A stretch of DNA of 64,000 bases from Myxococcales bacterium (GCA_012513515.1 JAAZCA010000029.1:181466-245465); one strand, 5' to 3'; counted from the first letter of the stretch, positions 16,367 through 57,782 are shown. Notes: generated from the sequence alone by a model not told the origin. A program made the numbers and translations.

Positions 16367-16645
16367 AACCTCTGAAAAGCTAGCTGTAACAATAACTTCG
16401 ACCATGGAGAATTGAGCATCGACCAAAAGATCAAGAAGCTAGAATCTAGAAGTGAGAAGCGAGATTTCTACAGGCGAGATTTTTCTAGCTTCTAGCCTCT
16501 CGCTTCTAGCTTCTGTTTTTCCCCGGTCACGGCTGTTACTGGATCCCCGATTACACCACTCGGGGATGACAACCTTTTCGCCATTCGGGGATGACAAGCG
16601 CATAGCTTTTAGAGACCCCCTGAATTTGCTGATTTTTCGGAGGTT
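16367..16645. repeat. mosaic intergenic repeat island 1, complete with inverted ends
   Basis: This 279-bp element fills the truB-rpsO gap (370 nt without a gene). Its left end is AACCTCTGAAAAGCTAGC and its right end reads AACCTCCGAAAAATCAGC on the other strand, a terminal inverted repeat of about 12 bp. Inside are the TTCGACCATGG module, CTAGAAG-type heptamers that fold on themselves (16434-16513), and the hairpin ATCCCCGA/TCGGGGAT (16540-16566). The truB stop is 8 nt from its right edge. No open frame of note and no clear target duplication. Confidence 0.85.
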
Positions 16646-16653
16646 ACTCAACA

Positions 16654-17331
16654 TCAAATCGCTATCAGGACCCTTTTCCAAAGCCCCGCATCCAATTTTA
16701 AGTCATCCAATGTAACCGCTTGAGAAATATCAAATTTTCCGCTTTTAAGGCGCCTTATTCTTGAGGCATGGCCGCAGGAGCCAATACGCTCCCCAAGATC
16801 CCTGCAAAGACTCCTGACGTAGGTGCCGGCCATACATTCAAGCTTCATATGAATATCATCGTCACAACTATTTATTATAGATATACTTTTTATTTCAACT
16901 GCGCGAGGCTCCAGCTCTATCTTTTCCCCAGCATATGCGGCATGATATGCACGCTGTCCGGCCACCTGAATCGCAGAGTAAATGGGTGGAACCTGCATTA
17001 TCTTCCCTATAAAATCGGGGATAGAGGCCTTGAGGCGTTCCAACGCATCAGATGAAACCGCCGAGGTGGAAAGCACCTCGCCCTGATCATCATCGGTGGA
17101 GGTCTTGACTCCGAGCTTCAACACGAATTCATATACCCTTTCCCCGCCTGAAAGGCTCGAGGCAAGTTTGGTCGCCCCATTTATCACCAAGGGAAGGACG
17201 CCGGTCGCGGCGGGATCGAGCGTGCCAAGATGTCCTACCTTCCTGGCCCCTGTGATACGCCTCACTATCGCGACTATATCATGCGAAGTAAAACCGGCGG
17301 GTTTATCGACTACCAATACTCCATCGATCAT
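16654..17331 (-). CDS. truB: tRNA pseudouridine-55 synthase, short form
   Basis: Makes pseudouridine at position 55 of the tRNA T loop. The 225-residue product has motif I (VVDKPAGFTSHD) and motif II (KVGHLGTLDPAATGVLP, catalytic Asp in TLDP). It also has VPPIYSAIQVAGQRAYHAA and TYVRSLCRDLGERIG. It stops soon after the catalytic domain, so the C-terminal PUA-like part of the 314-residue E. coli protein is missing. Such short forms exist in other bacteria, so truncation by the repeat element 8 nt downstream is possible but not needed. It begins 9 nt after nrnA. Confidence 0.95.
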   Translation of the reverse strand: MIDGVLVVDKPAGFTSHDIVAIVRRITGARKVGHLGTLDPAATGVLPLVINGATKLASSLSGGERVYEFVLKLGVKTSTDDDQGEVLSTSAVSSDALERLKASIPDFIGKIMQVPPIYSAIQVAGQRAYHAAYAGEKIELEPRAVEIKSISIINSCDDDIHMKLECMAGTYVRSLCRDLGERIGSCGHASRIRRLKSGKFDISQAVTLDDLKLDAGLWKRVLIAI

Positions 17332-17340
17332 GGCTAAAAC

Positions 17341-18315
17341 CTATTCTCCAAGCTCTTTCTTTACGATCTCCTCGAGCGAACGCTTGGCCTCGCCAAGTGG
17401 AAGCTTTATCCTGGCGCCCGCCGCCCTGGCATGACCGCCACCTCCGAAAAATCTGGCGACCTTCGCCACATCGACGATATCCTTGGATCTCAAACTCACC
17501 TTAGTCAGCTCAGGTTCCACCTCACGGAAGAGCGCGGAAACTTCAACTCCCGCGATTGAACGCGGGTAGGTCGCGAACTCCTCCGAATGTTCCATCGATG
17601 CCCCGCTATCTAACAGCATCTTCTGCGAAATTTCCATGCTGCAGTATTTCCCGTTCATCCCTACGGAGATCGTCGAAAGCGACAGCGCAAGAAGGCGAAT
17701 TGTTTCGATCGGGCGGGACTCTTCGAGATTTTTCGCTGAAGCCCAGGGATCGGCGCCGAGTTTCACCAGCCTGGAAGCCATCTCGAGCGAATGGGCCGAA
17801 GTATTGGAATATTTGAAAAAACCGGTATCAACTACGAGAGTCGTGTATATACACTGCGCTATATCCGGCGTAATCTCGAATCCTGCCTCCTCGAGAAGGT
17901 GCATGACGACCTCGCCCGTCGAGGCAGCCGCCTTGTCGATGAGCAGCAGATCGGCCTCGGCCTTCTCGAGCAGATGGTGGTCTATGCAGATGAAGATGTC
18001 AGCATCCTTCAAGGCCGCAAACTCTTCAGATATCCGGCTGCGCTGGGCACAATCGAGCATTATCGCCATATCGAAGTGACGGTCCGCAGGAAATTCCCTC
18101 CGAATCTTTTCGGCTTCCGGTAAAAAGACAAGGTTGAAGGGAACTCCGTCCTTGCTGTACATAAGGACGTCCTTCCCCATCCTGCGGAGCGCTATACCCA
18201 GAGCGAGGATGGACCCTATTCCGTCACCGTCCGGATTGAGATGGGAAGCTATGATGAACGAACGGGCTTTTTTTATCTCATTCGCCAGCGCTCCATAACC
18301 TAGATCCTTTGACAT
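17341..18315 (-). CDS. nrnA: DHH-family phosphoesterase, NrnA-like oligoribonuclease / pAp phosphatase
   Basis: Breaks down short RNA fragments and 3'-phosphoadenosine 5'-phosphate in NrnA relatives. From the ATG at 18315 it has 324 residues, with GGAGG 8 nt upstream and 1 nt after the rbfA stop. An in-frame ATG at 18339 would overlap rbfA. The DHH domain shows SHLNPDGDGIGSILALG, MLDCAQRSR and CIDHHLLEKAEADLLLID. The C-terminal DHHA1 domain has RFFGGGGHARAAGARI. Location between rbfA and truB is the usual one for this gene in many bacteria. Confidence 0.92.
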   Translation of the reverse strand: MSKDLGYGALANEIKKARSFIIASHLNPDGDGIGSILALGIALRRMGKDVLMYSKDGVPFNLVFLPEAEKIRREFPADRHFDMAIMLDCAQRSRISEEFAALKDADIFICIDHHLLEKAEADLLLIDKAAASTGEVVMHLLEEAGFEITPDIAQCIYTTLVVDTGFFKYSNTSAHSLEMASRLVKLGADPWASAKNLEESRPIETIRLLALSLSTISVGMNGKYCSMEISQKMLLDSGASMEHSEEFATYPRSIAGVEVSALFREVEPELTKVSLRSKDIVDVAKVARFFGGGGHARAAGARIKLPLGEAKRSLEEIVKKELGE

Positions 18316-18316
18316 T

Positions 18317-18667
18317 TCAGCGCCCTCCGGAAAGCGCATCTATTTTTTCGCAAAGCTCGATGGATTCATCGAAGAAGAATTTCAGATCGGGAACGAACTT
18401 CAAGGCAAGCGCACTGCCGATTTCCCTCTTTAAAAATCCCTTTGCGCTCTCGAGGCCGGAAGCTGCGCTCAACTTCAATTCGTCGTTCGTGTCGTACATA
18501 TGGAAATAGACGTAAGCAATTCGCAGGTCCTTGGTCATCCTGACCCTGGTGATGCGCACATTCACAAGCCTCGGGTCGGCAATACGCATGACGAGGGACT
18601 CATTGATCATCATGTATATCTCATCGGCTATTCTGTCGCCTCTGCTATACGGTAAATTCTTTGACAT
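18317..18667 (-). CDS. rbfA: 30S ribosome-binding factor A
   Basis: Late-stage maturation factor of the 30S subunit, bound near the 5' end of 16S rRNA. The 116-residue product has the KH-like RbfA fold: RIADEIYMMINESLVMRIAD, then RITRVRMTKDLRIAYVYFHM and LKFVPDLKFFFDESIELCEK. Length is normal. It lies 61 nt after infB and 1 nt before nrnA in the nusA-infB operon. Confidence 0.96.
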   Translation of the reverse strand: MSKNLPYSRGDRIADEIYMMINESLVMRIADPRLVNVRITRVRMTKDLRIAYVYFHMYDTNDELKLSAASGLESAKGFLKREIGSALALKFVPDLKFFFDESIELCEKIDALSGGR

Positions 18668-18728
18668 CGCTTTAAACCTCTACCTCCCACAAGCGCCTGA
18701 AAAAAAACCTCACTGCAAAATAGTATTT

Positions 18729-21176
18729 TTACAGAACGGCTGCGGTTTTTTCTATGATATAGGCCTCGATCACATCGCCTATCTTTATGTCGTTGAAGTT
18801 TTCGAGTCCGATTCCACATTCGTAACCTTCGGCAACCTCTTTTGCATCATCCTTGAACCTCTTCAGAGATGAAAGCTTACCTTCGAATACGACGACCTGG
18901 TCGCGAACCAGCCTGCCGAAAGCATTACGCTGTATTTTACCCTGAATGACATAACATCCGGCGATAGCGCCGACCTTGGATATCCTGAATACGTTTCTGA
19001 CCTCGGCAGCGCCGATTTCGACCACCTTCTCGTCAGGAGAAAGAAGGCCTGCCATGGCCTTTTTTACATCATCGATCATCTCATAGATTATTCTGTAGGT
19101 CCTTATCTCGACGCCGTCGGCAGCAGCTGCAGACCTGGCTTTTCCGTCCGGCTGAACGTTGAAACCAAGTATGACAGCCTCGGAAGCCGCAGCGAGCATG
19201 ACATCGCTCTCTACAATTCCACCAACTGCGGAATGCAGGACTTTTAATTTCACTTTGTCGGTGGAGAGTTTTTCCAGAGCGTCCTTAACCGCCTCAGCGG
19301 AACCATGGACATCCGACTTGATTATCACTCCAAGTTCCTTGCTCTCGCCCTCGGAAAGTCGCGCCGACAGATCTTCCAAAGAGATATGTATGTCGCTAGA
19401 TAGACCCCTCTTGCGCATCTTCTCCCTTCTCTGGTCCACCACCATTTTTGCGCTGCGATCGTCGGCAACGCCTACCATATCATCGCCCGCGGTGGGAGTG
19501 CCGGAAAGACCCAGGATCTCTACCGGCTGCGAGATATGTGCCTCCTTGACCGGCTTGCCTTCATGGTCGAACATAGCCCTGACTTTTCCATCTACGCTTC
19601 CGCAAACGATATAGGATCCGACCTTGAGCGTACCTTCCTGGATAAGTACGGTAGCCACAGGCCCCCTGCCCTTATCAAGTCTGGCTTCTATGACGACTCC
19701 CTTGGCGCGGATGGTGGGATCGGCTTTGAGGTCGAGCATCTCCGCCTGAAGAAGGACCATCTCCAAAAGCCTGTCGATCCCTTCGCCGGTTTTTGCGGAG
19801 GTATGTACGCATATGACATCCCCGCCCCACTCTTCAGGGACAAGTCCGTGTTCCGTAAGCGCTTGGCGAATCCTGTCGGGCTGAGCCTCATGCTTGTCCA
19901 TCTTGTTGATCGCCACGATGATCGGAACACCGGCCGCCTTGGAGTGATCTATAGCCTCGATTGTCTGAGGCATTATTCCATCGTCGGCAGCGATCACCAG
20001 AATAACTATATCCGTCAATTGGGCGCCGCGGGCTCGCATCATCGTGAAAGCTTCATGGCCAGGGGTGTCCAAAAATGTAATATTCCCCTTACTGTGTTTC
20101 ACCTCGTATGCGCCTATGTGCTGGGTGATTCCGCCAGCCTCACGATCTGCTACGCTGCTCTTCCTTATGTAGTCCAACACTGAGGTTTTGCCATGATCGA
20201 CGTGACCCATGACAGTAACTACAGGCGCCCTCGGTACAAAATTTCCTGCCGAAGCGCGAGCTTCGGGTTCGGCGAGTATTTCCTCTTCCCTGAACGCGGT
20301 GTTTTCAACCGTGAACCCGTTTTCCTCTGCGATCAGCTGTGCCGTATCAACATCTATGTGCTGGTTGATCGTAGCCATGACTCCAAGGGAGATCAGCCTT
20401 TTGATGATATCCGCAGCTTTCACGCCAAGGGTCTGGGATAACGCCGAGACGCTTATCTCGCCCTCTATCCGAATGATCTTCTTGATCGCCTTTCTTTCAG
20501 TGATCTGAGTTTTCTTGAAATCCTTGCGTACGGTTTTTTTCTTTCGCCCGGAGATAGCTGGTTGAAAAACCCTATCCCCCACAGCGGCAGCCGAAGGCTC
20601 CATGTCATCTTCGGTATATTTTTTGAGACCTCCCGCGCGCTGTATGGCCTCCATCTCCAGCTCGTCACGGCTTTTCTTTCTGCGAGTCCTTTTGAATTTA
20701 TCACGCCAATCTTCCTTGAGGCTGATGATCTCGACCGTCCCATCGGCAGCGACTGTCGTTTGCTGAGGAGTCGGAGCCGGGCGCTCCAGAACTATGTGTC
20801 CCACAACGCCTATCTTCTTTTCGGCCTCGCTCGGGGCTTTCAGTTTTAAACCTTCATCTGCAGCAACGGATTCACCACCTTCATCTCTTGGCTCTGCTTT
20901 TTCGGAGGGAATTTCCTGTGGAGTTGCCTCCTGAACTATCTGTTCCGGCTTCGGCTCGGCAGCCGGCTGCTTTTCGGCAGTCTCTTGCGGTGCAGCTTCG
21001 GGTTGAAGGACTTGTTGAGTTGCGGACTCGACCGCAGATTCCTCCTGTGCAGGCTGCACAGGGACTTCCGGCTCGACGACCTTCTTGGCCCTTCGCCTGA
21101 TTATCGTCGTGGTAACCCTTTTCTCAACGACTTTCGTTGCCGATTCACTATTCTCGTTTTTAAGCTCTTCAGACAT
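18729..21176 (-). CDS. infB: translation initiation factor IF-2
   Basis: GTPase that brings initiator tRNA to the 30S subunit and promotes 50S joining. The 815-residue product has a low-complexity N-terminal region (about 1-220, rich in Glu, Ala, Pro and Gln). An IF2-N domain follows ([20 protein letters not shown]). The G domain has G1 GHVDHGKT, G3 DTPGHEAF and G4 NKMDK (about 320-490). The barrel and C-terminal tRNA-binding domains ([19 protein letters not shown]) come last. AAGGA stands 7 nt before the ATG. It follows nusA by 46 nt. Confidence 0.98.
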
Positions 21177-21222
21177 GCCTGGTTCCTTCTTTTACTCTGG
21201 TTGTTTTAATCTCTCTAAAAAA

Positions 21223-22650: not shown

Positions 22651-22651
22651 A

Positions 22652-23161: not shown

Positions 23162-23190
23162 TCCCTTAGCGTCTCTTTTCCGTGTTAGAC

Positions 23191-23218
23191 CAAAAAAAAT
23201 GGGCTCCCGCAGGGCCCA
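23191..23218 (-). terminator. intrinsic terminator after the lamin-tail lipoprotein gene
   Basis: On the minus strand TGGGCCC..GGGAGCCCA folds into a stem of about seven pairs with one G-U, followed by eight T. It lies about 140 nt after the stop of the upstream gene and about 30 nt before rimP. Confidence 0.7.
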
Positions 23219-23357
23219 AAGAAGAAAACTCGATGAGGTTTGATACGGGCGGGACTATATATACAAAGCTGAAAGAGGCGCAAGGAAAAAGTTAATTATT
23301 TTCATAGGGAAAGCTTCGGAGAGAAGGTCTCGAATATGATGAAACTCCTGTAAAAAA

Positions 23358-24437: not shown

Positions 24438-24470
24438 ACCTTCTCCCTTCCCGATTTAAACCCTCGATAT

Positions 24471-28394: not shown

Positions 28395-28825
28395 AAACTT
28401 TTTAGAAATTAGCGAATTTGCCATCCCCGAGCGACGAAAAGGTCGTCATCTTAATCTTAATCCTAATCTTAACCTTAATAACGATATTTTCGAATATAAG
28501 CTAATCTTACAAAATGCTGATCAAAGATCAGCGATCAGGATTCGACCCCCTCCCGCAACGACCGTGACTTGTGACTCGTAACTGGTGAACGGTCGGAACG
28601 GGATTCCCGTCTGCCCCGCGCGGTAGCGGTGGTTTGCCCCGCGTTAGCGGCGGCTTACAGCATGCGGGAATGACGGCGTGATTGTCATCCCCGAGTGCTT
28701 TAATCGGGGATCCCGTAACAGCCGTGACTGGGAAAAACAGAAGCTAGAAGCGAAAGGCTAGAAGCTAGAAAAACCTCGCCTGTAAAAATCTCGCTTCTCA
28801 CTTCTAGATTCTAGTTTCTTGATTT
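28395..28825. repeat. mosaic intergenic repeat island 2
   Basis: The region between the purine permease and the symporter (28389-28898) holds no gene. It starts with a decayed element end (GAAACTTTTTAGAAATTAGC). Then come CTTAAT-type hexamers (28449-28482), a TTTTCGAATAT segment, GATCA repeats (28517-28538) and the GTGACTTGTGACTCG and GGTGAACGGTCGG modules. The TTCCCG/CGGGAA hairpin, the CCCCGA/TCGGGG hairpin and finally CTAGAAG heptamers (28740-28821) follow. It is the largest island after number 3 and carries nearly every module. Confidence 0.8.
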
Positions 28826-28898
28826 TTCCGCTTTCCGATTAGATATCTTTGCAAGTCATAAATACTGTGTTAATTTGCGGCTTCGAAAAGGGGAAACG

Positions 28899-31087: not shown

Positions 31088-31115
31088 AAAGGCCCCGTAT
31101 CCCTACGGGGCCTTT
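31088..31115. terminator. bidirectional terminator between pilZ-like gene and SWIB-like gene
   Basis: AAAGGCCCCGTA (31088-31099) pairs perfectly with TACGGGGCCTTT (31104-31115), loop TCCC. T-rich tracts follow on both strands (TCTCTTTTCC on plus, TGTTTTTAATG on minus), so it serves both convergent genes. Confidence 0.92.
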
Positions 31116-31139
31116 CTCTTTTCCTTTTTACCGCGCCAA

Positions 31140-31355
31140 CTATTTGTTGGAGAGGTTGTACTTCTTCACATACGCCCAAAGTTTCTTCGTCATGAGTGAC
31201 GGAGCGATCGGGGTCGTGCCAAATACGTTCTCAAGCGTGTGCTCTGAGCCCTTGAAGCAGATGCTGTAGCCGCCGAACGCGCCCTTCTTGGATGCGCTCT
31301 TCGTGCTCTTTTTCGTCGTTCTCTTCGGGGCCTTCTTCGTGTTCTTGCTTACCAT
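31140..31355 (-). CDS. small lysine-rich protein with SWIB-like C-terminus
   Basis: The 71-residue product has a Lys/Ser/Thr-rich basic tail (residues 3-25). The rest (ICFKGSEHTLENVFGTTPIA, SLMTKKLWAYVKKYNLSNK) resembles the core of a SWIB/MDM2 domain, where KKLWxYIKxxNL is the signature. Only the C-terminal half of that fold is present. The layout is reminiscent of histone-H1-like or SWIB proteins of chlamydiae and some proteobacteria, so DNA binding is plausible but inferred. AAGGAGG precedes the ATG at 31355, and an extended -10 box lies 44 nt upstream. It looks well expressed and has its own terminator. Confidence 0.65.
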   Translation of the reverse strand: MVSKNTKKAPKRTTKKSTKSASKKGAFGGYSICFKGSEHTLENVFGTTPIAPSLMTKKLWAYVKKYNLSNK

Positions 31356-31398
31356 ATTTCCTCCTTAAGGAATGTTGTGGATTGCAGACTTGCGGCAT

Positions 31399-31407: not shown

Positions 31408-31499
31408 TAAGCACATTCGGGAAAGAAGCAAAAAGTGCAGATTCTCACTTTTTTCCCCTCGTAAAAACAGACTTTTTACAATGCAAATTTGACTTATGT

Positions 31500-31876
31500 A
31501 ACCTCTGAAAAATCAGCAAATTCAGGGTACCCTCTAAAAACTATGCGCTTGTCATCCCCGAGTGACAAGAAGGTCGTCATCCCCGAATGGTTCTATCGGG
31601 GATCCCGCAAGAACCGTGACTGGTGACTGGTGAACGGTCGGAACCCCGCGGTAGCGGCGGCTTACAGCGTGCGGGAATGACATTCATGGTGTCATCCCCG
31701 AATCTTCGTCTTAACCTTAATAACGATATTTTCGAATATAATCCAGCCTTACAAAGGGCGGATCAAAGATCAGCGACAATGGACCATTGACCATTGAACA
31801 GCTGCGATCGGTGGTTTTGGTCGATGGTCAATCGTCCATGGTCGAAGTTATTGTTACAGCTAGCTTTTCAGAGGTT
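31500..31876. repeat. mosaic intergenic repeat island 3, complete with inverted ends
   Basis: This 377-bp element fills most of the 523-nt gap before the end of hpt. Its left end AACCTCTGAAAAATCAGC and right end TTTTCAGAGGTT are inverted repeats, and it lies in the opposite orientation to island 1. Inside are CCCCGA/TCGGGG hairpin units, GTGACTGGTGACTGGTGAAC, the CGGTAGCGG module, TTTTCGAATAT, and TTGACCA heptamers (31775-31850). The right edge lies 2 nt from the hpt stop codon. Confidence 0.87.
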
Positions 31877-31878
31877 CC

Positions 31879-38341: not shown

Positions 38342-38608
38342 CCGTTCCAACAATAACTTCGACCATGGACAATTGACCATCGACTGACATCTCTAGCTTC
38401 TGTTTTTCCGCCAGTCACCAGTCACGGCTGTTACGGGATCCCCGATTAAAGCACTCGGGGATGACGACCACACTGTCATTCCCGCATGCTGTAAGCCGCC
38501 GCTACCGCGGGGTTCCGACCGTTCACCAGTAACGAGTCACGGTCGTTGCGGGGATGACAAGCGTATAGCTTTTAGAGGTGCCCTGAATTTGCTTATTTTT
38601 CAGAGGTT
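38342..38608. repeat. mosaic intergenic repeat island 4 in a 654-nt divergent gap
   Basis: The gap 38118-38771 separates the histidine kinase from kinase paralogue 2. Its right half is a repeat island. In order it holds the TTCGACCATGG and TTGACCA modules, CTAGCTTCTG, CACCAGTCACGG, the CCCCGA/TCGGGG hairpin and TTCCCGCATGCTG with CCGCTACCGCGGGG. GTTCACCAGTAACGAGTCAC and the right end TTTTTCAGAGGTT (to 38608) follow. The left inverted end is lost. The rest (38118-38341) is unassigned; the promoters of both flanking genes should be here, but no clear boxes were found. Confidence 0.82.
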
Positions 38609-41700: not shown

Positions 41701-42170
41701 AGGAATGCAACAAACAGATATCGGCCAGCGCATGCCTGGGCGGTGAAAACTACGCCCTCTTTGCGGCACGCGTATGGTCACTGATGGGAAGATGCTGCAA
41801 CGAGATGGGGGACTACAATAAGGCGATACTATATTTTGAAGCGGCGCTCGCCGGCGACCGCCGCGACTTCTTCACCATGTCGGCCATGGAAGGGCTTGGC
41901 GAAGCCCACTTCGGCAATGGAAATTTCGAAGAGATGGAAAAATGCTTCGAGGAGGCCGATCGCATGCTTTCTGGAATGCCGGAGGACGTCTCATCGAATT
42001 CGCACCGCTATCGAATCCTGCTTCTGCGCGCGCGCGCAAAACTCTCATCGGGGGAGACAGACGATCTCGAATCCCTCCTCTCCGGCCTCAAGAAATACTC
42101 TCACGGCGACAAGGCGCATGAAGAGGAAATTTCCGAGATCGAAGAACGCATGGCAGAAATACTACGGTAA
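38772..42170 (+). CDS. Ser/Thr protein kinase - NTPase - TPR-like signalling protein, paralogue 2
   Basis: A 1132-residue soluble protein with the same plan as the product of 34115-37249. The kinase domain has a proper glycine loop (HGGSGLVHEG), VAIK (Lys40), HLDIKSDN (157-164), DFG (180-182) and APE. About 35 extra residues (45-80) lie between the Lys strand and helix C. Walker A is GPDGIGKS (363-370), Walker B PIILFMDDL. The C-terminal half is TPR-like (GNFDKALLWARKALRLAESK, LMGRCCNEMGDYNKAILYFE). Upstream in-frame ATGs exist at 38748 and 38685; GGGAG precedes the chosen one by 10 nt. The stop is followed directly by GTGAACGGTGAACGG of island 5. Duplication from paralogue 1 or the reverse is clear; specific targets are unknown. 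Confidence 0.86.
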   Translation: MSEANAFGGYIVTRPEIAHGGSGLVHEGSAPDGKRRVAIKVLDKELIERNIQRALARKHPSLGNRPLEITQETRRAYEINVERFKIEYRTLLQLEHPNIARVFEIGFKEGHFFIVSEFVDGKPLAQYVKGWEPSEMIPLFVQFLEGLDFIHRSGLIHLDIKSDNILVEEVEGSPRVKIIDFGLAMTPSEYRGSFIGTISTMAPEVALGLREKVNSKSDLYSAGVVMYNCITWGAHPFERSARGSRDAIRKMIDGEEYISPDPPSAAHKQKGRFVPDFLDKIILKLLSFEPENRFYPNARAVINALRTHMPEAFGAKGSSEASYLRPPGLSRIGREKICDEIEPDIDRVISSEIPKNSLYHLTGPDGIGKSHLISCLKSTAEMDVERIALHSMTFPMSDDHMLESIARLERDMAENSKPIILFMDDLHELIQGSEAADRALKTLKGLASLFVERRKNQKLYSDLAPVLMVATSKSGSAVADGLMPEQLESVKFEIPPFKAADLKRYLKATPALSEREISSATIDLLIEQTAGIPQEIVERLEELDSKSALFDACGEVVITSQEISLRPEKPASGSTRERLLAKFHSLEPAEREAAEIAACLAFKPFLPPPSASLIMKLLDRTTSAQTIRMLCDKGILRPAKSKAGSVKDPYTFVDEAYMPGLIHSEMETKRREMLHDAIFLELEKRGKKSEEFQNELLLHLAFSSDTRRAASSAIKLGRRMLNHEGKAALAVELLELALQKIDAENWKFRSYVLSLISGAHLNQDRYTEAELTIREAQKITREKCGFWHDQVTSLAIIKTLRGGDLTSAGKLIEKEKNSCSECDTLFRKAFFMNFEGQLFYHRAYREPQRSRELLEESKKLFEKSAELEQLLPKNRVELISNNLLYSVLMSLGNYRAAAANLEKQIEEKKLGIYSLNSAYVTLAEIYRLSGNFDKALLWARKALRLAESKLAGFPLLQVHATLANIFYDQGDYPRCMEECNKQISASACLGGENYALFAARVWSLMGRCCNEMGDYNKAILYFEAALAGDRRDFFTMSAMEGLGEAHFGNGNFEEMEKCFEEADRMLSGMPEDVSSNSHRYRILLLRARAKLSSGETDDLESLLSGLKKYSHGDKAHEEEISEIEERMAEILR

Positions 42171-42267
42171 ATAGTGAACGGTGAACGGAAACCCACATCT
42201 TCATTGCGAGCGTCAAGCGAAGCAATCCCGTTCCAACCGTTCACCAGTCACGAGTCACCAGTCACGG
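42171..42267. repeat. mosaic intergenic repeat island 5 between convergent genes
   Basis: It begins at the plus-strand kinase stop with GTGAACGGTGAACGG. It passes CATTGCGAGCG/CGAAGCAATCCC (a hairpin type found in many bacterial genomes) and ends with GTTCACCAGTCACGAGTCAC and CAGTCACGG. The last unit supplies the TGA stop of the minus-strand TPR lipoprotein gene. Heptamer modules thus point inward from both convergent stop codons. Confidence 0.8.
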
Positions 42268-43065
42268 CAGTTCCTTACTTTTTCGCGCCCTGTTCATATA
42301 GTCATCGGCCTCTGCGTCGCGACCGAGGGCTCGGTTCACCCGCGCGAGGGCATCCAAATCTTTGGAGATCCCCGCAGAATATTCGACCAGCTTGTCTTCA
42401 GCAAGAGCACGATCATACCCTTGCAGGGCGGCCTCAAAATCCCCCTCTTTTTCAGCGAGCCTCCCCAGCGAATAGTGAGATGTCGCGGAAAGGCGGTGAA
42501 GTTTTTTAGGAATCGATATCGCCAGCGATTGGGAGAGTTTGTCGCGAGCAGAGGCAAGCTCTCCCGATTCGATATCGATAAGGGCCTCGTTACTTAGAAC
42601 GGTCGCGACCCCCTCGCCGTCCTTAGCGTCGCGATATCTCTTCATCGCTTCTAAAAATGAGCTACGAGCAGATACTAAATCATCTTTTGCCATCTGCGCA
42701 CTGCCGATATTATTCAAGTTCGCCCCTGCCCCCTTCAAATTTCCTATCCTGTCGTTGATCTCCAATGCCTCGCGAAATTTCGTGCAGGCATCGTCGTAAC
42801 TGCCTGCGACAAGATACAGCTGGCCAAGATTGTTCAGGCTTTCGGCGACCCCTTCCTCATGATCTATCCTCTCGGATATCGAGAGAGCGCGACCGTAGAA
42901 CCTGGCGGCATCATCGTAGCGCCCCTGATAGTAAAACTCGTTTCCGCGAAGGTTGAGGCGCTTAACATCGACCTTTATCGTATCGACCGTGGAAGCTCTC
43001 TTTCCGCCGCCACACCCTGCCATTGCTATCGTCAGCAGCGCAGCAATTATCATTATCAGCTTCAC
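42262..43065 (-). CDS. TPR-repeat lipoprotein
   Basis: The natural start is probably the GTG at 43065, 4 nt after AAGGAGG; the frame is open to 43110. The 267-residue product has a lipoprotein signal (MIIAALLTIAMAGC). Five or six TPR units follow (GNEFYYQGRYDDAARFYGRA, LNNLGQLYLVAGSYDDACTK, LGRLAEKEGDFEAALQGYDR). It should be anchored in a membrane facing the periplasm and act as a protein scaffold. It is the last gene after mlaE-mlaF-mlaD, separated from mlaD by repeat island 6, so a part in the same lipid transport system is possible. The final Pro codon and TGA stop are formed by the repeat unit CCGTGACTGG. Confidence 0.85.
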   Translation of the reverse strand: MKLIMIIAALLTIAMAGCGGGKRASTVDTIKVDVKRLNLRGNEFYYQGRYDDAARFYGRALSISERIDHEEGVAESLNNLGQLYLVAGSYDDACTKFREALEINDRIGNLKGAGANLNNIGSAQMAKDDLVSARSSFLEAMKRYRDAKDGEGVATVLSNEALIDIESGELASARDKLSQSLAISIPKKLHRLSATSHYSLGRLAEKEGDFEAALQGYDRALAEDKLVEYSAGISKDLDALARVNRALGRDAEADDYMNRARKSKELP

Positions 43066-43120: not shown

Positions 43121-43337
43121 TTGAGGTTACAGAAGCTAGAGTCTAGAAGTCAGAAGCGAGATTTCTAATCTCCGCTTTTTCTAGCTTCTAGCCTCTGTTT
43201 TTCCCAGTCACGGCTGTTGCGGGATCCCCGATTACAGCACTCGGGGATGACACCATGAACGTCATTCCCGCGGTCTTAAGCCGCCGCTACCGCGGGGTTC
43301 CAACCGCTCACCAGTCACGAGTCACAAGTCACGGCTT
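43121..43337. repeat. mosaic intergenic repeat island 6
   Basis: It fills the space between the mlaD stop and the leader of the TPR lipoprotein. On the minus strand it reads AAAGCCGTGACTTGTGACTC right from the mlaD TAA stop. GGTGAGCGGTTGG, the CGCGGTAGCGGCGG and CGGGAATGAC hairpin, the CCCCGAGTG/ATCGGGGATCC hairpin and CTAGAAG heptamers follow, ending in AACCTCAACC. Confidence 0.85.
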
Positions 43338-44172: not shown

Positions 44173-44322
44173 CTTCGCGTGAACATACCCCCGCTGATAG
44201 TCACGGCAGCTAGTGGATCCCCGTCAACATCATGCGGGGACGACAATCACAGCGCCATTCCCGCAGTTGTAGGCGGGAATCCCGTTCCGACCGTTCACCA
44301 GTTACGAGTCACAAGTCACGGT
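44173..44322. repeat. mosaic intergenic repeat island 7
   Basis: It fills the mlaF-mlaD gap. On the minus strand it starts inside the mlaF stop (AAACCGTGACTTGTGACTCG). GGTGAACGGTCGG, GGATTCCCGCCTAC/GCGGGAATGGC, ATGATGTTGACGGGGATCC and GCTGCCGTGACT follow. The CTAGAAG module is missing in this short copy. Confidence 0.83.
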
Positions 44323-45761: not shown

Positions 45762-45789
45762 CTTATATCATAGAAGCGAGAAAGTGCAA
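45762..45789 (-). promoter_or_regulatory. mlaE promoter, likely leaderless transcript
   Basis: The minus strand has TTGCAC (45789-45784), a 16-nt spacer, TATAAG (45767-45762), then six bases and the ATG at 45755. Transcription starting 7 nt after the -10 box would begin at the A of the start codon. There is no ribosome site, in keeping with a leaderless mRNA. Confidence 0.55.
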
Positions 45790-45794
45790 TAAGG

Positions 45795-45990
45795 AGTAAG
45801 GTTGAGGTCAACGGTTAAAGGTGAAAGGTCAAAGGAAATCAGGCGTAGGGCGTAAGGCTCAAGGCGTGAGGGAAAAGCAGAAGTGAGAAGTCAGAAGCGA
45901 GGAGCTAGATTTATGCGGGCGAGGTTTTTCTAGCTTCTAGCATCTCACCTCTAGCTTCTGTTTTTACGCCCGTCACCGGTCACGAGTCAT
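45795..45990. repeat. mosaic intergenic repeat island 8
   Basis: It lies between the yitT stop and the mlaE promoter. On the minus strand it runs from CATGACTCGTGACCGGTGAC through CTAGAAG heptamers (45880-45960) to GGCGTAA-type units (45838-45870, seen as GGCGTAGGGCGTAAGG on plus). It ends with TTGACCTTTCACC-type units next to TTGAGG. The hairpin modules are absent, so it is almost pure heptamer sequence. Confidence 0.82.
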
Positions 45991-46884: not shown

Positions 46885-46918
46885 TCACCAGTCACCAGTC
46901 ACCAGCCACCAGTTACAC
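46885..46918. repeat. short heptamer island 9
   Basis: TCACCAGTCACCAGTCACC followed by AGCCACCAGTTAC is about four tandem copies of the 7-mer CACCAGT. It joins the RND gene stop directly to the ribosome site of yitT. It is the purest tandem heptamer copy in the window. Confidence 0.85.
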
Positions 46919-46922
46919 CTCC

Positions 46923-49589: not shown

Positions 49590-49607
49590 TGAAGCCTCCG
49601 GAAGAAA

Positions 49608-51506
49608 CTATCTACGGGGAGAAGATATATGAAGAACGGAATCAGAAGATCTCTCCGCGTTTTCGGAAATAACCGCACTGACTATGGCATCGGCGTAGAG
49701 GTCGTGCATTCTATGCAACTCAGGAATGGCCCCCTGCTCAACGAAGATATCGTCATATCCAAATCTAAGGACCGATATTTCTTCGAACCCTCTGTCGCTT
49801 AGAAGTTCGAGCACCGCCGATCCAAAGCCGCCCGCCTTCATACCATCCTCTATGGTGATAAAACGGCGGCATCTCTTGGCCATCCTTAGAATGCAGGACT
49901 CATCCAGCGGCTTGACAAATCTCGCATCAACCACGGCAGCATCTATACCCCGAAGCTTGAGCGATGACGCGGCGTCCACCGCTACCTTGAGCATATTCCC
50001 AGCTGAAAAAATAACACAGTCCGGTTTTTCCGGATCCCCTATCGTCACCGATTTTCCAAATGGAATAGGCTCTGGACTGGCGGAAACAGCAACGCCGGTC
50101 CCTTTCCCTCTGGGATATCTTATCGCCACAGGCCCTTTATACGTCATGGCCGAAAACAGCATCCTCGAAAGCTCCTCCTCATCGGATGGCGCCATGATAG
50201 TCATATTCGGAATAGATCTCAAAAAACTTAGATCGAAAACTCCATGATGCGTAGGGCCGTCATCACCTACGACTCCCGCTCTGTCGATCGCGAAGATGAC
50301 AGGCAAATTCTGGAGAGCGACATCGTGTATCACTTGGTCGAATGAGCGTTGCAGAAAACTGGAATAAACAGCAAAGACCGGGCGAAAACCACGTGTCGCA
50401 AGACCTGCTGCGAATACCGTGGCATGCTGCTCAGCTATTCCAACATCGTAATATCTACCTGGAAATCTATCGCGCACCTTGTCAAGTCCGGTACCGCTGG
50501 GCATAGCGGCGGTTATAGCGATCACGCGGCTATCCTGTTGCATCAACCTGCAGAGCGAATCGCTAAACGCGGCGGTATATGTAGGACGAGGATCATTGGG
50601 ATCGGAAAGCGGATCGCCTGTGTTTATGTCAAATTTGGATATCCCATGATATTTCGAAGGGTCTTTTTCGGCCGGGGCGTACCCCTTCCCCTTCTTCGTT
50701 ATAACATGAAGCAGAACGGGCTGCGACTTATCGGGGCTCTTGTCGATATCATCGGATATATTTTTCAGTGTTTCTACAAGCGATTTGTAGTCGTGGCCAT
50801 CTATCGGACCGATGTATCTGAAACCGAAGGCCTCGAACAGACTCCCTGCCAGAAAAAAATCCTTCACTACGAGCGCCGCCCTTCTGGTCAAATCCACAAG
50901 ATTGAGCTCTTTGGTCGAAACTATGTTGAGCAGGGTCTTCACATCGCGCTTGATACGGTTGTAGGTCGGATTGGTGAGGCCGCGATTCATGAATCGGGCT
51001 ATGGCGCCGACGTTCTTGTCGATCGACATCTGATTGTCGTTTAGCACCACTATCAGGTTTTTGTTCTGAATGTGTCCTGCGTTATTCATCCCTTCGAATG
51101 CAAGACCTCCAGTCAACGAACCATCCCCTATCACGGCGATGGTCTTGCTCTTATCGCCGGAAAGGCGTTTTGCCTCGGCGATTCCCAGCGCTGCGGAAAT
51201 GGAGGTCGAGCTGTGCCCTGTGCCAAACGGATCATGCTCGCTCTCCTCGCGCTTCGGAAAACCTGAAAGGCCGCCGCGCATCCTTATCGTGTGAAAGCGA
51301 TCGCCGCGGCCTGTAAGTATCTTGTGGGCATAGGCCTGATGTCCGACATCCCATATGATGGAATCTTCGGGGCTTTTAAAAACCTCGTGCAGTGCTGTAG
51401 AGAGTTCAACAACACCGAGGCTCGGCGCAAGATGCCCGCCGTTTTTAGATGAGATCTCTATGATCCGATTTCTTAAATTTTCCAGATCTTCATTTGTATA
51501 TGCCAT
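49608..51506 (-). CDS. dxs: 1-deoxy-D-xylulose-5-phosphate synthase
   Basis: First step of the MEP isoprenoid pathway, thiamine diphosphate dependent. The ATG at 51506 has GAGGA 7 nt upstream and gives 632 residues. The open frame to 51572 only adds repeat-derived codons. Landmarks: KNGGHLAPSLGVVELSTALH, TGHSSTSISAALGIAEAK, IGDGSLTGGLAFEGMNNAG (cofactor motif), DVGIAEQHATVFAAGLATRG and FAIDRAGVVGDDGPTHHGVF. The N-terminus is about 30 residues shorter than many Dxs but retains the catalytic core. The RND gene follows after 18 nt, implying one transcript. Confidence 0.96.
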   Translation of the reverse strand: MAYTNEDLENLRNRIIEISSKNGGHLAPSLGVVELSTALHEVFKSPEDSIIWDVGHQAYAHKILTGRGDRFHTIRMRGGLSGFPKREESEHDPFGTGHSSTSISAALGIAEAKRLSGDKSKTIAVIGDGSLTGGLAFEGMNNAGHIQNKNLIVVLNDNQMSIDKNVGAIARFMNRGLTNPTYNRIKRDVKTLLNIVSTKELNLVDLTRRAALVVKDFFLAGSLFEAFGFRYIGPIDGHDYKSLVETLKNISDDIDKSPDKSQPVLLHVITKKGKGYAPAEKDPSKYHGISKFDINTGDPLSDPNDPRPTYTAAFSDSLCRLMQQDSRVIAITAAMPSGTGLDKVRDRFPGRYYDVGIAEQHATVFAAGLATRGFRPVFAVYSSFLQRSFDQVIHDVALQNLPVIFAIDRAGVVGDDGPTHHGVFDLSFLRSIPNMTIMAPSDEEELSRMLFSAMTYKGPVAIRYPRGKGTGVAVSASPEPIPFGKSVTIGDPEKPDCVIFSAGNMLKVAVDAASSLKLRGIDAAVVDARFVKPLDESCILRMAKRCRRFITIEDGMKAGGFGSAVLELLSDRGFEEISVLRFGYDDIFVEQGAIPELHRMHDLYADAIVSAVISENAERSSDSVLHISSPRR

Positions 51507-51542
51507 GTTTATATCCTCAAGTGAAGCTAGGCCGAAAATACC

Positions 51543-51734
51543 GACCATGAACAATTGACCATCGACCGACATCTCTAGCTTCTGTTTTTCCGCCAGTCAC
51601 CAGTTACGGTTGTTACGGGATCCCCGATTAAAGCACTCGGGGATGACGACCATACTGTCATTCCCGCATGATTTAAGCCGCCGCTACCGCGGGGTTCCGA
51701 CCGTTCACCAGTTACGAGTCACCAGTCACGGCTT
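51543..51734. repeat. mosaic intergenic repeat island 10
   Basis: On the minus strand it starts at the wecA-like stop with AAAGCCGTGACTGGTGACTC. GGTGAACGGTCGG, CGCGGTAGCGGCGG with CGGGAATGAC, ATCCCCGAGTG/ATCGGGGATCC, CGTAACTGGTGACTGG and CAGAAGCTAGAG follow. It ends in GGTCAATTGTTCATGGTCGG about 37 nt before the dxs start. Confidence 0.87.
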
Positions 51735-53180: not shown

Positions 53181-53206
53181 AATGTTTTACCGACCATCGA
53201 GTGAGG

Positions 53207-53547
53207 CTAAGGTTGCAGAAGCCAGAATCTAGAAACGAGAAGCTAGATTTCCGCGGCCGAGGTTTTTCTAGCTTCTAGCATCTCACATCCAGCCTCTGTT
53301 TTGTCGCCAGTCACCAGTTACGAGTCACGGTTTTTACTGGATCCCCGATTAAATCGTTCGGGGATGACAACCTTTCAGCGCGCTGTCATTCCCGCGGTAC
53401 TAAGCCGCTGCTACCGCGGGGCAAACGGGAATCCTGTTCCGACCGCAACTTCAACCATGGACAATTGACCATCGACCAAAACCACCGATCGCAGCTGGTC
53501 TATGGTCCATTGTCAATAATCACGGGTTTTCCTGTCCCCGTTGCCAG
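53207..53547. repeat. mosaic intergenic repeat island 11
   Basis: This 341-nt copy fills the wzz-wecA gap (367 nt without a gene). From the wzz stop on the minus strand: CTGGCAACGGGGAC, TTGACAATGGACCATAGACC heptamers pairing with GGTCGATGGTCAATTGTCC, and GGATTCCCG/CGGGAATGAC enclosing CGCGGTAGCAGCGG. CCCCGAACG/ATCGGGGATCC, CGTGACTCGTAACTGGTGAC, CTAGAAG heptamers and a final AACCTTAGCCTC follow. It has almost every module but no AACCTCTGAAAA ends. Confidence 0.86.
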
Positions 53548-54693
53548 TTACACTTTTCTTTTCCTCATCTCCGCCTTGAAGTTGTTTATATATTCAAGCG
53601 CGAAAGTAGCGAAGATCGCAAGAAAGAGACTAGCCATGAAGGTAACGACGCAGATCAACTTTCTCTTTGGCTTATATCTCTGTATAGGAACAACCGCATC
53701 ATCTATCACCTGAAAGTTTATATCTTCCTTCGATTCCTCGATCATCGCCATCTCGTACTGCGTAGAGAGCAGCGCATTTATCTTGGCTATAACCTCGCGG
53801 CGCATCTCCAGGTACTGAAGATACACCTGCTGCGGGACGTTTTTAACCCGCATCTCCTTGAGCTTATTCTCTATCTCCGCGCGACGCTTATTCAGTTCAT
53901 CCAAGTCCAGATCCAAGGCGCGCGCTCCCTCCTTCAGGCGCTCAATTTCAATATCCACATCGATGTTAGCATCTACGCTCGAAACCTTGTTCCTTCCGTA
54001 GAAATCGGCAATCGCCTTGCCAGCCTCCAGAAAGTCGCGCTTGTTTTTGCGAAGAAGCCCCTCGATAAAAATTCTATTTTTCTTCGAAACCGAAAAAGCC
54101 TTCTGATTTATTATCTCCTGCAATTCGGCAACTACGGCATTGGCCACCCTGGCGGAAAGCTCCGGATCTTTGAAGTCAGCGTTGATAGATATCGTAGAAA
54201 TCTCTTTATTCTGCTCATAGATCACACTATCTCTGAATGCATCAACAGCACGCTCCATAGTGGGAATCTCTTCAGGATCCTCGCTTTTCCAGCTCTTTTT
54301 GTCCGCATCCCACTCATCCTCAAAGAATATCTGCATCAGCCCCTGCTTATTTATAACCGCATCGGCGAGGCTCCTGCTTTGAAGAATCGCCATCAGCTTC
54401 GCCTCAGGGCCGGCATTCATTCCGCCGATTCCGGCAAGAGCCGCAAGACCACCCAGGTCGCCGCCGAGGGCAGACATCATCCCGGATTTTTGCTGAAGCG
54501 GCATGATGACAGCCTGCGATCTAAAGATTTCAGGTAGAAGGAGGCTCACTATCACCGCCAGGACGCAGGCAACGCCGACTATTATGGCTATCATCTTCCG
54601 CCTCTTTTTCAGGACGATAAAAAGATCGACCAAGTCTATCTCATCGTCGTTGCCTCCGCGACCCATGGATTGATTTATATTCGATCCCATCAT
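53548..54693 (-). CDS. polysaccharide chain-length determinant (Wzz/GNVR family)
   Basis: Inner-membrane co-polymerase that sets the length of exported polysaccharide. The ATG at 54693 has AAGGAG 6 nt upstream and gives 381 residues. Membrane segments lie near the N-terminus (IAIIVGVACVLAVIVSLLL) and C-terminus (KRKLICVVTFMASLFLAIFA). Between them is a long periplasmic helical part with LARVANAVVAELQ-like and EEIDLVDLFIVLKKRRK-like Wzz sequence. The final Pro-rich VVPIQRYKPKRK is typical. No cytosolic tyrosine kinase domain is attached, so this is a Wzz rather than Wzc type. Confidence 0.92.
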   Translation of the reverse strand: MMGSNINQSMGRGGNDDEIDLVDLFIVLKKRRKMIAIIVGVACVLAVIVSLLLPEIFRSQAVIMPLQQKSGMMSALGGDLGGLAALAGIGGMNAGPEAKLMAILQSRSLADAVINKQGLMQIFFEDEWDADKKSWKSEDPEEIPTMERAVDAFRDSVIYEQNKEISTISINADFKDPELSARVANAVVAELQEIINQKAFSVSKKNRIFIEGLLRKNKRDFLEAGKAIADFYGRNKVSSVDANIDVDIEIERLKEGARALDLDLDELNKRRAEIENKLKEMRVKNVPQQVYLQYLEMRREVIAKINALLSTQYEMAMIEESKEDINFQVIDDAVVPIQRYKPKRKLICVVTFMASLFLAIFATFALEYINNFKAEMRKRKV

Positions 54694-54712
54694 CTGCAAC
54701 TCCTTTTTCCCC

Positions 54713-54909
54713 TTCTAGCTTCTGCTTTGCCGCCAGTCGCGGTTGTTGCTGGATCCCCGATAAAGTCATTCGAGGATGACGACCATCTCGTCACTCGGGG
54801 ATGACACCATGAATGTCATTCCCGCATGATTTAAGCCGCCGCTACCGCGGGGCAGACGGGAATCCTGTTCCGACCGTTCACCGGTAACGAGTCACCAGTC
54901 ACGGTTTTT
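54713..54909. repeat. mosaic intergenic repeat island 12
   Basis: It joins the wza-like stop to the wzz ribosome site. Minus-strand order: AAAACCGTGACTGGTGACTC, GGTGAACGGTCGG, GGATTCCCG/CGGGAATGAC enclosing CGCGGTAGCGGCGG. Two CCCCGA/TCGGGG units, CAACCGCGACTGG and CAGAAGCTAGAAGGGG follow, and the last runs straight into AAAAAGGAG of wzz. Confidence 0.87.
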
Positions 54910-56040
54910 CTACTTCCTCTGCAATGCAAGTATCGTAGCCGAGGCGGAGAGGCCGAAGCTCGCGATACTGACCATAAATGTAATCCATCCCGTCGGGCTC
55001 AGCCAGCGCTCCTTTACGGATATGCTGTCACCCGGATTTACAACCATCCCATCGACCCCTTTTCTAACCTTTCCATCGGGGGCAATGATCTTGATCTTAC
55101 TGACCTTGCCTCTCTCCGAGACACCGCCTGCGAGGGAGAGGTACTGCGAAAGGTTATAGTGTGGGCTGAATGGATACGCCCCAGGAAATTTAACCCCGCC
55201 AAGAACGAAGACCCTATCTTCATATGATGGATAAAAAGGCTGCTCGCCGGGGAGACTCTCCACATTAAAATCGAATTCGTTTTGTGCCGTAATCACATTA
55301 GGAACAAATACCACATCGCCATTCAGGATATCGAAGGAGGAAAGGCTGACCGAATCGTTATTCACATCGATAACGTCCTTACTGCCATTCTTAAACCTTA
55401 CGACCTTTATGGGGAGGGACATATCAACGCCAGCGGTGAAATCGCCAGCGAGCTCTATAAGCGCCTTCAGATTCCTCTCATTTTTAAGCTCATATATATT
55501 CGGTCTTCTAACCGATCCGGCGATCTGGACCACATCCTTCCTAAGCGGAATAAAGATAACGTCATTTTCCATCAGATAGGGGTTATTTTCGAGATTTCCG
55601 TAAAGCTCATATGAAAGAAGATCGATCGGAATAGATCGCCCATCCCGTTTGAGCTGTATGTGGCGAAGCGAACCGACAAAGGTGACATCCCCGGCCTGTT
55701 TGACGGCATCTGATAGCCTGGTGGATGCCGAGACCTGATATGTACCGGGCTCACCAACCTCACCAAGGACATGGATCTGATAGGCGGACATGCTCATGAC
55801 GCCGCCAATCCCGGACCTCGAATAATCGGTCAAACCCTGTTGCGAAAGGCCGGATCTATCCCCCCCAAACCCGCCAGACTGGGAGGGGTCAGCTCCATCA
55901 GCCTGATAAGTTCGAAAGCTGGGCTTGGTAGCCGCACCCTGTTTAGCTCTGGTAGGAACCTGCGCATAGGCCGTTAAAGAGGTGAAAAATATAAAATTAA
56001 GAGCCATAAAGGCGCTGACGGATCTGAGATGTTTTCTCAT
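54910..56040 (-). CDS. SLBB-domain polysaccharide export protein, Wza-like
   Basis: Periplasmic/outer-membrane export component for surface polysaccharide. The ATG at 56040 (AGGGGG 4 nt upstream) gives 376 residues with a cleavable signal peptide ending TSLTAYA-Q. SLBB beta-grasp repeats follow (IHVLGEVGEPGTYQVSASTR, VQIAGSVRRPNIYELKNERN, VFVLGGVKFPGAYPFSPHYN). No lipobox Cys is present, unlike E. coli Wza. The C-terminus is a hydrophobic helix (GWITFMVSIASFGLSASATI) that could cross a membrane. The N-terminal Poly_export motif is not clear. Gene order wza-wzz-wecA is consistent with a capsule or O-antigen type system. Confidence 0.85.
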   Translation of the reverse strand: MRKHLRSVSAFMALNFIFFTSLTAYAQVPTRAKQGAATKPSFRTYQADGADPSQSGGFGGDRSGLSQQGLTDYSRSGIGGVMSMSAYQIHVLGEVGEPGTYQVSASTRLSDAVKQAGDVTFVGSLRHIQLKRDGRSIPIDLLSYELYGNLENNPYLMENDVIFIPLRKDVVQIAGSVRRPNIYELKNERNLKALIELAGDFTAGVDMSLPIKVVRFKNGSKDVIDVNNDSVSLSSFDILNGDVVFVPNVITAQNEFDFNVESLPGEQPFYPSYEDRVFVLGGVKFPGAYPFSPHYNLSQYLSLAGGVSERGKVSKIKIIAPDGKVRKGVDGMVVNPGDSISVKERWLSPTGWITFMVSIASFGLSASATILALQRK

Positions 56041-56147
56041 ATAACCCCCTGGAAACAAAGAATTTTTGCTGGTATACATGAGGAAATCTTCAAGTCAAGC
56101 AATTATATGTGATTGAAATTGAAGGGGAAATATCGAGACGAAGGCTG

Positions 56148-56203
56148 AGGTTGGGATTGAGGTTACAGAAGCCAGAATCTAAAGGCCAGCCATGAGTCAC
56201 GGC
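56148..56203. repeat. fragmentary repeat island 13
   Basis: A short copy after the ugd stop: GAGCCGTGACTCATGGCTGG, then TTAGATTCTGGCTTCTG and AACCTCAATCCCAACC on the minus strand. Only the GTGACT and CTAGATTCTGG modules remain. Confidence 0.65.
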
Positions 56204-56205
56204 TC

Positions 56206-57528
56206 TCACACTCCAACCCCGCAATATACAAACCCCCTCTCCTCCATCTCGGATCTCCGATATATGTTCCTGAAATCGAAGAAGTGATTTCCTTTCATGG
56301 ATTTCTTTACGCGATCCAGGTCGAGGCTGCGAAACTGGTTCCATTCGGTAAGTATCATCACCGCATCGGCACCCTCGATCGCCGCATATTCATCCGAACA
56401 ATAGGTGATATGTTCCTTCATATTTTCAAGGCGCCATTTCGCCTCGCCGATCGCCTTGGGATCGTAGGCGGAAAAATGCGCCCCGCGCGCCGCCAGATCG
56501 TTCATGATCGTGATGGCCGGACTCTCGCGCATATCGTCGGTATTAGGCTTGAAGGCCAAGCCCAAGACGGCGATCCTCTTTCCCTTAAGATCGCCCATCG
56601 TCGCGGCAACCTTTTCGGCCATGAGGCGCTTCTGTTTCTCGTTACTCTCGATGCTCTGCTCTACCAGATAGAGCCTTGCCTCGAGCTTCTTTCCGATATC
56701 TGCCAGCGCCTTCGTATCCTTCGGAAAGCAGCTCCCGCCGTATCCTGGGCCGGCATGGAGAAACTTCGGACTGATTCTGCCATCTTTCCCCATCGCCCTG
56801 GCGACATCCTGAACGTTTGCCCCCACCTTCTCGCAGAGATTGGCGATCTCATTTATAAATGTGATCTTCATCGCCAGAAAGGCGTTCGATGCGTATTTGA
56901 TCATCTCAGCAGTTTCCAGATTCGTTTCAACGAATGGGGTTTCATTCAGATAGAGCACCCTGTACACATCCTTCATCATCGAGATCGCCCTCTCACTTTC
57001 AGCCCCCACAACCACGCGATCCGGATGCGTGAAGTCCTGCACCGCCGACCCCTCGCGCAGAAATTCCGGGTTACTAACGACATCGAACGGATGATCTACA
57101 TTCCTGTTTTTCAACTCCTCGGAGATCCAGCCCTTCACCTTTTGCCCAGTCCCGATCGGCACCGTGCTCTTGTCGACTACGACCTTATAGCCGTTCATCG
57201 CGCGCGCGATCTCACGGGCAGCATCCTCGACATGTTTAAGATCCGCGCTTCCATCCTCGGCCGGAGGAGTTCCAACGGCTATAAAAACGATGTCACAGTT
57301 TTTAACCGCCTCGCGCGTATCGGTAGTAAACTTTATCCTTCCGTAATAGCGATTGCGTTCCACGATCGGAAGAAGCCCCGGCTCATAGATGGGAGTCTCA
57401 CCGTTATTCAGCTTCTCGATCTTCTTTGGATCACTGTCAACACACACGACGTGATGCCCGAAGTCTGAAAGACAGACTCCAGTGACAAGGCCTACATACC
57501 CGGTTCCGATTACAGCGATGTTGGACAT
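56206..57528 (-). CDS. ugd: UDP-glucose 6-dehydrogenase
   Basis: Oxidises UDP-glucose to UDP-glucuronate for polysaccharide synthesis, with 2 NAD. The 440-residue product has the NAD-binding start VIGTGYVGLVTGVCLSDFGH, the linker STVPIGTGQKVKGWI, and the catalytic Cys in GYGGSCFPKDTKALADIGK. The C-terminal domain has LGLAFKPNTDDMRESPAITI. Length is standard. It is preceded by a 254-nt gap, and its stop is followed by a remnant repeat. Confidence 0.95.
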   Translation of the reverse strand: MSNIAVIGTGYVGLVTGVCLSDFGHHVVCVDSDPKKIEKLNNGETPIYEPGLLPIVERNRYYGRIKFTTDTREAVKNCDIVFIAVGTPPAEDGSADLKHVEDAAREIARAMNGYKVVVDKSTVPIGTGQKVKGWISEELKNRNVDHPFDVVSNPEFLREGSAVQDFTHPDRVVVGAESERAISMMKDVYRVLYLNETPFVETNLETAEMIKYASNAFLAMKITFINEIANLCEKVGANVQDVARAMGKDGRISPKFLHAGPGYGGSCFPKDTKALADIGKKLEARLYLVEQSIESNEKQKRLMAEKVAATMGDLKGKRIAVLGLAFKPNTDDMRESPAITIMNDLAARGAHFSAYDPKAIGEAKWRLENMKEHITYCSDEYAAIEGADAVMILTEWNQFRSLDLDRVKKSMKGNHFFDFRNIYRRSEMEERGFVYCGVGV

Positions 57529-57782
57529 ATTGAGCTCCTATGATAAATAAGTTAAACCAAACTTAGGGGAAATCGGCGTAAGGCGTAGGGCGTAAGGAAA
57601 AACAGCTGCCCTTCTAATTTAGTCTCTTAAACCAAAGTCTTTTGCAAAAAGACCCTCGTTTATTTTATGATAAATAAAAACGGCCAAGTCCTTTGAGCGT
57701 TGTCACACTTTCAATTCCTGATATTTACCCATAAAAACACCCTATCAAAATCTTGCCACTACCCTAAAAAGCCTTACGCCTT
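57529..57782. other. 254-nt spacer with heptamer fragment 14
   Basis: Near 57567-57600 the plus strand reads CGGCGTAAGGCGTAGGGCGT, about four GGCGTAA heptamers, followed by AAGGAAAAACAG. The remainder is AT-rich. The ugd promoter is probably here, but no clear box pair was chosen. The last bases before the next stop (GCCTTACGCCTTTCAC) again look like the heptamer. Confidence 0.6.

Follow-up and report, generated by a model that had tools for sequence, protein, structure and literature searches.

Genome-wide composite repeats on a MITE frame, with a nested interior of REP hairpins and heptamers, in an uncultured bacterium

Background

The closest described counterparts of the repeats reported here are the MITEs of the IS5 family, the neisserial NIMEs, the BrickBuilt MITE of Porphyromonas gingivalis (PMC4596501), the CGTC superfamily of REP sequences (PMC3733652) and several tandem heptamers, namely the STRR sequences of cyanobacteria, GGGAATC of Xanthomonas (PMC4692102) and TAACTGA of Beggiatoaceae (PMC4679880). 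The CGTC REPs are found in five phyla, and how they move was left open in the survey by which they were defined (PMC3733652). One of them, CGTC-1, is the dRS3 of the NIMEs, which combine dRS3 with RS (PMC3733652, PMC3898611). Heptamers were generally not found inside MITEs in the study of Xanthomonas and Nostoc (PMC4692102).

The genome considered here is that of an uncultured bacterium (1.79 Mb in 42 contigs, 99.3% complete), whose IF-2 protein is closest, among named records, to that of "Deltaproteobacteria bacterium co234_bin13" (68% identity). We refer to the whole 64,000-nucleotide stretch analysed, C29:181466-245465, as the window; coordinates are those of the window unless a contig is named. 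The comparison set comprised three genomes of the same family, from the sister genera G001, G002 and G003, and ~42 further genomes of the class; G005 belongs to another family.

The islands of this genome resemble IS5-family MITEs in being short and gene-free, in their many intergenic copies and short A/T-rich duplications, and in having ends in common with a remnant of a DDE_Tnp_1 IS, but their interior combines REP hairpins with heptamers as a mosaic and is not a deleted IS, and no partner IS was found in the genome. With the NIMEs they share organisation only, that is, mosaic intergenic arrays that include CGTC-type REPs, from which they differ by an outer transposon frame, heptamer arrays and a fixed order, with no dRS3-targeting phage known. 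BrickBuilt likewise places tandem repeats in an intergenic, MITE-like frame, but in the parts of its description drawn on here the single unit is one of 23 nt, and neither REP hairpins nor heptamers appear (PMC4596501). The heptamers themselves are degenerate 7-base tandem arrays, intergenic and close to genes, as is characteristic of repeats of the STRR type, although the units differ and are here also carried in MITEs. The composite is real, genome-wide, nested and MITE-based, and illustrates the way in which a MITE may acquire an interior in layers. Its novelty lies in the combination and not in a new class, since both the heptamers and the REP hairpins also occur outside islands in relatives.

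Islands of the window

The ends of the islands, A and B, bear terminal inverted repeats (TIRs). Between them, module T consists of TTGACCA heptamers, D of AAGATTAAG/AATATCGTTATTAAG, S of GTGACTG heptamers, and H of CTAGAAG-type heptamers in the inverted arms of a ~90-nt hairpin; P1 and P2 are a head-to-head pair of CGTC-type REPs, one arm of P2 being interrupted by a second hairpin, P3 is part of an inner inverted-repeat pair, and T2 and N are further named modules. By our count the gene-free spacers between 16,363 and 57,785 contain 14 islands, in keeping with a preliminary description, made from the window's sequence, that had placed about 14 such spacers between 16 and 57.6 kb and none in the first 16 kb; module clusters are absent from those first 16 kb and also from the last 6 kb. 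All of the modules that it listed are present, although D, T2, the TIRs and the inverted orientation of two islands had escaped it. Long repeat families span the modules of the window, for example one of 74 nt in seven copies and 98-nt pairs at 95%.

A complete MITE of the structure A-T-H-P1-P3-B occupies 16365..16647 on the + strand (module hits 16367-16645), with TIRs at 16367-16378 and 16634-16645, the sequence GG...AC lying between two copies of TCAA, and module H at 16434..16518 (+). Another, A-T-T2-D-P2-N-S-P1-P3-B at 31498..31878 on the - strand (module hits 31500-31876; TIRs 31500-31511 and 31865-31876), reads GT...CC between two copies of TTAT. This element and the TIR-less island H-P1-P2-N-S-D at 28456..28827 (-, module hits 28456-28820) are inverted relative to all others in the window. 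On the - strand at ~31100-31360 a small lysine-rich protein is predicted, with a weak, below-cut-off match to SWIB (16.7 bits, cut-off 25). An island with only the B-side TIR (38597-38608), T-H-S-P1-P2-N-S-P3-B, lies at 38344..38608 (+, module hits 38352-38608), and a TIR-less one, H-S-P1-P2-T-T2, at 53207..53530 (+, module hits 53217-53514). Heptamer-only tracts on the + strand, an AGAAGCC... remnant at 56155..56195 (tract about 56,155-56,190) and (GGCGTAA)n at 57575..57605 (tract about 57,575-57,595), complete the series beyond the gene-end islands considered below.

A genome-wide family of fixed order

The similarity extends beyond the window: a single island used as query gave 58 matches across the genome, and 67 islands, ~13.9 kb in all, were mapped in the stretches around repeats that were read. 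Among the 65 islands with at least two modules, the majority strand carries 351 of 355 modules, and for the order A-T-(T2-D)-H-P1-P2-N-P3-B the module pairs are concordant in 619 cases and discordant in 50 (619/669), compared with a mean of 50% and a maximum of ~60% concordance when module order is shuffled. The nearly constant order noticed earlier thus holds across the genome, as a consistency between islands and not as an independent prediction, because the order was read off the same islands. Module D is involved in 31 of the 50 discordant pairs, and S may precede or follow the REP pair.

Both ends are present in 20 of these 65 islands, B alone in 14, A alone in 8 and neither in 23; some of the one-ended islands are cut by contig ends. 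Contigs C3, C5, C7, C13, C21, C22, C25, C39 and C40 end inside composites, and with so many contigs breaking in this way, short-read assemblies are expected to undercount recent copies. A longer IS, first suggested by the contig ends in islands, was rejected, the ends being the same composites breaking the assembly. The exact composite pattern was found in no genome of another species and had no plasmid match, and in Rfam only tRNAs were matched. The earlier view of the islands as a distinct family holds for a composite of fixed order; it had missed the transposon frame, and the hairpins resemble the described CGTC REP superfamily.

The transposon frame

Ends A and B both carry AACCTCTGAAAA as 12-bp TIRs, with the extended form GK-AACCTCTGAAAA, and the genome has 95 sites for AACCTCTGAAAA at no more than one mismatch, compared with 13 for a reversed control. 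Complete elements, 129-385 bp long with inverted ends, make up about a third of the islands, and 23 pairs of ends were compared. The 4-mers flanking these pairs (outside GK...MC) are exact duplicates in 10 of the 23, against 4.2 in shuffled pairings, and the 3-mers in 14 of the 23, against 5.35; none of 1000 shuffles was as high, for the best of several lengths and offsets tried. As to the 4-bp YTAR-type duplication of IS5-family MITEs, TTAA, TTAT, TTAG, TCAA and TTTA were seen, but a length of 3 bp fits equally well. The duplications partly reflect a preference for TTAA-like targets.

An order framed by 12-bp TIRs and short target duplications makes many of the islands MITEs: they have TIRs at both ends, are multi-copy and flanked by target duplications, are too short for a gene, and share their ends with a related, though decayed, DDE_Tnp_1 IS in the genome G033. 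Two composites of 231 bp, one at C18:13818 and the other at C22:17349, have different flanks but 95.6% identity across 226 bp, from which it follows that cargo and frame moved together.

We consider it probable that the islands descend from a MITE whose interior consists of nested repeats and on which a transposase of IS5-like (DDE_Tnp_1) type acted in trans. The ancestor would have been non-autonomous, about 130-385 bp long and bounded by the inverted ends GK-AACCTCTGAAAA; smaller repeats would have accumulated in it, nested, in the fixed order T, D, H, S, P1/P2, N, P3, and complete copies would have spread as units by means of a transposase now missing from the genome. The TIR-less islands might be derivatives that lost their ends, or older heptamer and REP tracts at gene ends that fed the assembly of the MITE interior. 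Counting against a MITE origin are the 23 multi-module islands with neither end and the restriction of exact duplications to 10 of the 23 pairs; a search for an empty site of a complete copy found none.

A candidate mover and relatives that share the ends

The decayed IS of G033 is a 779-bp element with the same ends, between which a broken transposase survives as two pieces of reading frame. Its C-terminal piece matches DDE_Tnp_1 (IS4/IS5-type) at 39.5 bits (cut-off 23), and plasmid relatives of the remnant are annotated as IS5 family. The intact IS5 relatives that were checked have different outer ends; those of ISKpn26, of the IS5 group, are GGAAGGTGCGAACAAG, which shares 10 of 16 positions with the ends of the G033 element. 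Against a mover of IS5 type count these differing ends and the fact that the decayed IS belongs to another family of the class and not to this genome. Searches of this genome with DDE_Tnp_1, DDE_Tnp_4, DUF772 and the G033 remnant gave no match. The partner might accordingly have been lost, have remained unassembled or be of another type, and the copies are probably stranded.

In 7 of 60 genomes, all within the class, the ends form exact pairs with a spacing of 119-149 bp; the 14 genomes outside it and the reversed control gave none. Six further genomes of the class thus have short elements with these ends around different interiors, which are palindromes of GGCCCATCTGC or of TTCGTCCTGAGC/TTCGACAAGCTC, or else CGTC REP pairs where the ends are imperfect. 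The ends shared with relatives could be the arms of palindromes instead of IS ends, because the 120-bp elements are near-perfect palindromes. Such ~120-bp palindromes, AACCTCTSAAAAAGGCCCATCTGC..., are present in several copies per genome in G038, G009, G024, G012 and G019, and matched no Rfam family and no plasmid.

Gene ends and the mla operon

A gene end lies within 13 nt in 10 of the 14 S-ended islands, an adjacency that simple decay of a MITE does not predict, and in four genes (at 42262, 44316, C17:49792 and C5:24545) the stop codon, a TGA of the array, is supplied by a heptamer. In the window, tracts lie along the operon MMPL-yitT-mlaE-mlaF-mlaD-TPR, all of them on the + strand. The TGA of the TPR gene (42262-42264) is inside the GTGACTG array of N-S heptamers at 42165..42274 (module hits 42230-42272); the TIR-less island H-P1-P2-N-S at 43131..43337 (module hits 43131-43334) has its S end 3 nt past the mlaD-like stop; and the mlaF-like stop is inside an S heptamer of 44194..44322, a degenerate P1/P2 pair with N-S (module hits 44284-44322). 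Between the yitT-like and mlaE-like genes, 45780..45990 contains GGTCAAA/GGCGTAA heptamers, module H and GTGAC heptamers (module hits 45879-45965), and a (GTGACTG)n array at 46885..46919 (module hits 46888-46909) fills the MMPL/yitT junction. Outside the operon, also on the + strand, the TIR-less island T-H'-S-P1-P2-N-S at 51526..51734 (module hits 51542-51731) has its S end 3 nt past the stop of the 51735 gene, and P1-(P1')-P2-N-S at 54720..54909 (TIR-less, module hits 54751-54905) adjoins the stop of the 54910 gene. At 51542-51572, module T contains the start predicted for the DXS gene (49608-51572); the true start is probably downstream, the other possibility being a start codon supplied by the island. 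Measurements of how far heptamer arrays lie from start codons were discarded, since false starts arise from the GTG in the heptamer.

The operon is syntenic in the sister genus G003, where four successive junctions (G003:C96) bear (GGAACCC)n, (GGGTCCC)n, (GATCACT)n and (GTGAACT)n, and also in G005, where it lacks yitT and the junctions lack arrays. It was used in place of the 51735 gene, for which an empty-site test found no syntenic relatives. Within the family the position of the arrays is kept and their sequence is not. The same operon junctions with different heptamers across genera offer a test case for the bias of bacterial intergenic tandem repeats towards 7-base units.

These observations, together with a predicted RNA folding of islands that is better than that of shuffles (z -5.0 and -3.1), are what might be expected if the islands were tracts maintained by the host at gene ends, for mRNA ends, supercoiling or translation termination, and had received MITE ends late and only in some cases. 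We hold this explanation to be unlikely. Good folding is expected in any case because hairpin repeats must fold, and the adjacency to stop codons may be partly trivial, since the spacers are short and open frames end on entering arrays that contain stops. Moreover, sequences at the same site differ between genera, the G005 junctions are array-free, and the complete TIR copies, oriented 7:5 in tandem contexts, have no preference. In 42-58 kb terminator-like sites are not in excess (12 vs 15.8 expected), on which ground a terminator function was rejected, and neither are promoter-like sites. The analysis found no evidence of a host function. A role of the heptamers as stop codons in all frames was likewise rejected, GGAACCC and GGGTCCC of G003 containing no stop.

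The descent from a MITE might also be joined, tentatively, to a process of the host. The conservation of array position and replacement of array sequence between genera of the family would fit a host process that lays down 7-base arrays at stop codons, which the MITE, on this doubtful extension, would then capture together with CGTC REPs and spread. If that were true, the CGTC REPs, which are without a known transposase, would gain a route by which to move.

The nested interior

The cargo of the frame was read from the sequences as follows. P1 and P2 form head-to-head dimers with a CGTC or TGTC head and a stem of 8-9 bp beginning with AT, and agree with the CGTC superfamily in the GTC head, the 8-bp stem ATCCCCGA or ATTCCCGC and the head-to-head pairing. 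They differ from it in the inserted second hairpin, in a tail that is often CCCG here (in relatives it is the CCA of the superfamily) and in a loop of 9 nt, here and in relatives, instead of the 4-5 nt of the CGTC definition, although exceptions in loop length are noted in the survey (PMC3733652). P2 exists in an empty form of 29-30 bp, a filled form of 50-51 bp and a shortened form of 41-42 bp, the filled form containing a ~21-bp insert with CCGCTACCGCGG, that is, a hairpin inside a hairpin. That CGTC REPs here ride inside transposon ends is testable.

P1-like repeats free of the transposon frame occur in G003, G005, G026 and G030, and heptamer tracts in the sister genera, as GTGACTC in G003, AGAAGTC in G001 and GTGATCG in G002; no heptamer tracts were found in G005 or in shuffled controls. 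The likening of the heptamers to STRR in the preliminary description was apt, as period 7 (with its multiple 14) is the top tandem period in the window and also in G003, and in G001 it ranks with the commonest periods.

The strict order and strand, and copies truncated at both ends, could be accounted for by a single long ancestral element each copy of which decayed by deletion, without any nesting. This appears improbable in view of the variable placement of D, which precedes P2 in some islands but follows it elsewhere, the duplication or shifting of P1, the coexistence of filled and empty P2 hairpins and the frameless existence of REP hairpins and heptamers in relatives. That the islands are REPIN-type elements mobilised by RAYT transposases is very improbable, for although the genome has two intact Y1_Tnp (RAYT-like) genes (C19:40794-41120 and C29:25451-25783, in contig coordinates), the repeats near them are CTCCGTCTGACGGTG and not island modules, and the survey reports no association of CGTC REPs with a transposase (PMC3733652). 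At least the second of these genes, C29:25451-25783, has arrays of CTCCGTCTGACGGTG-type repeats on its flanks, which constitute a separate REP system.
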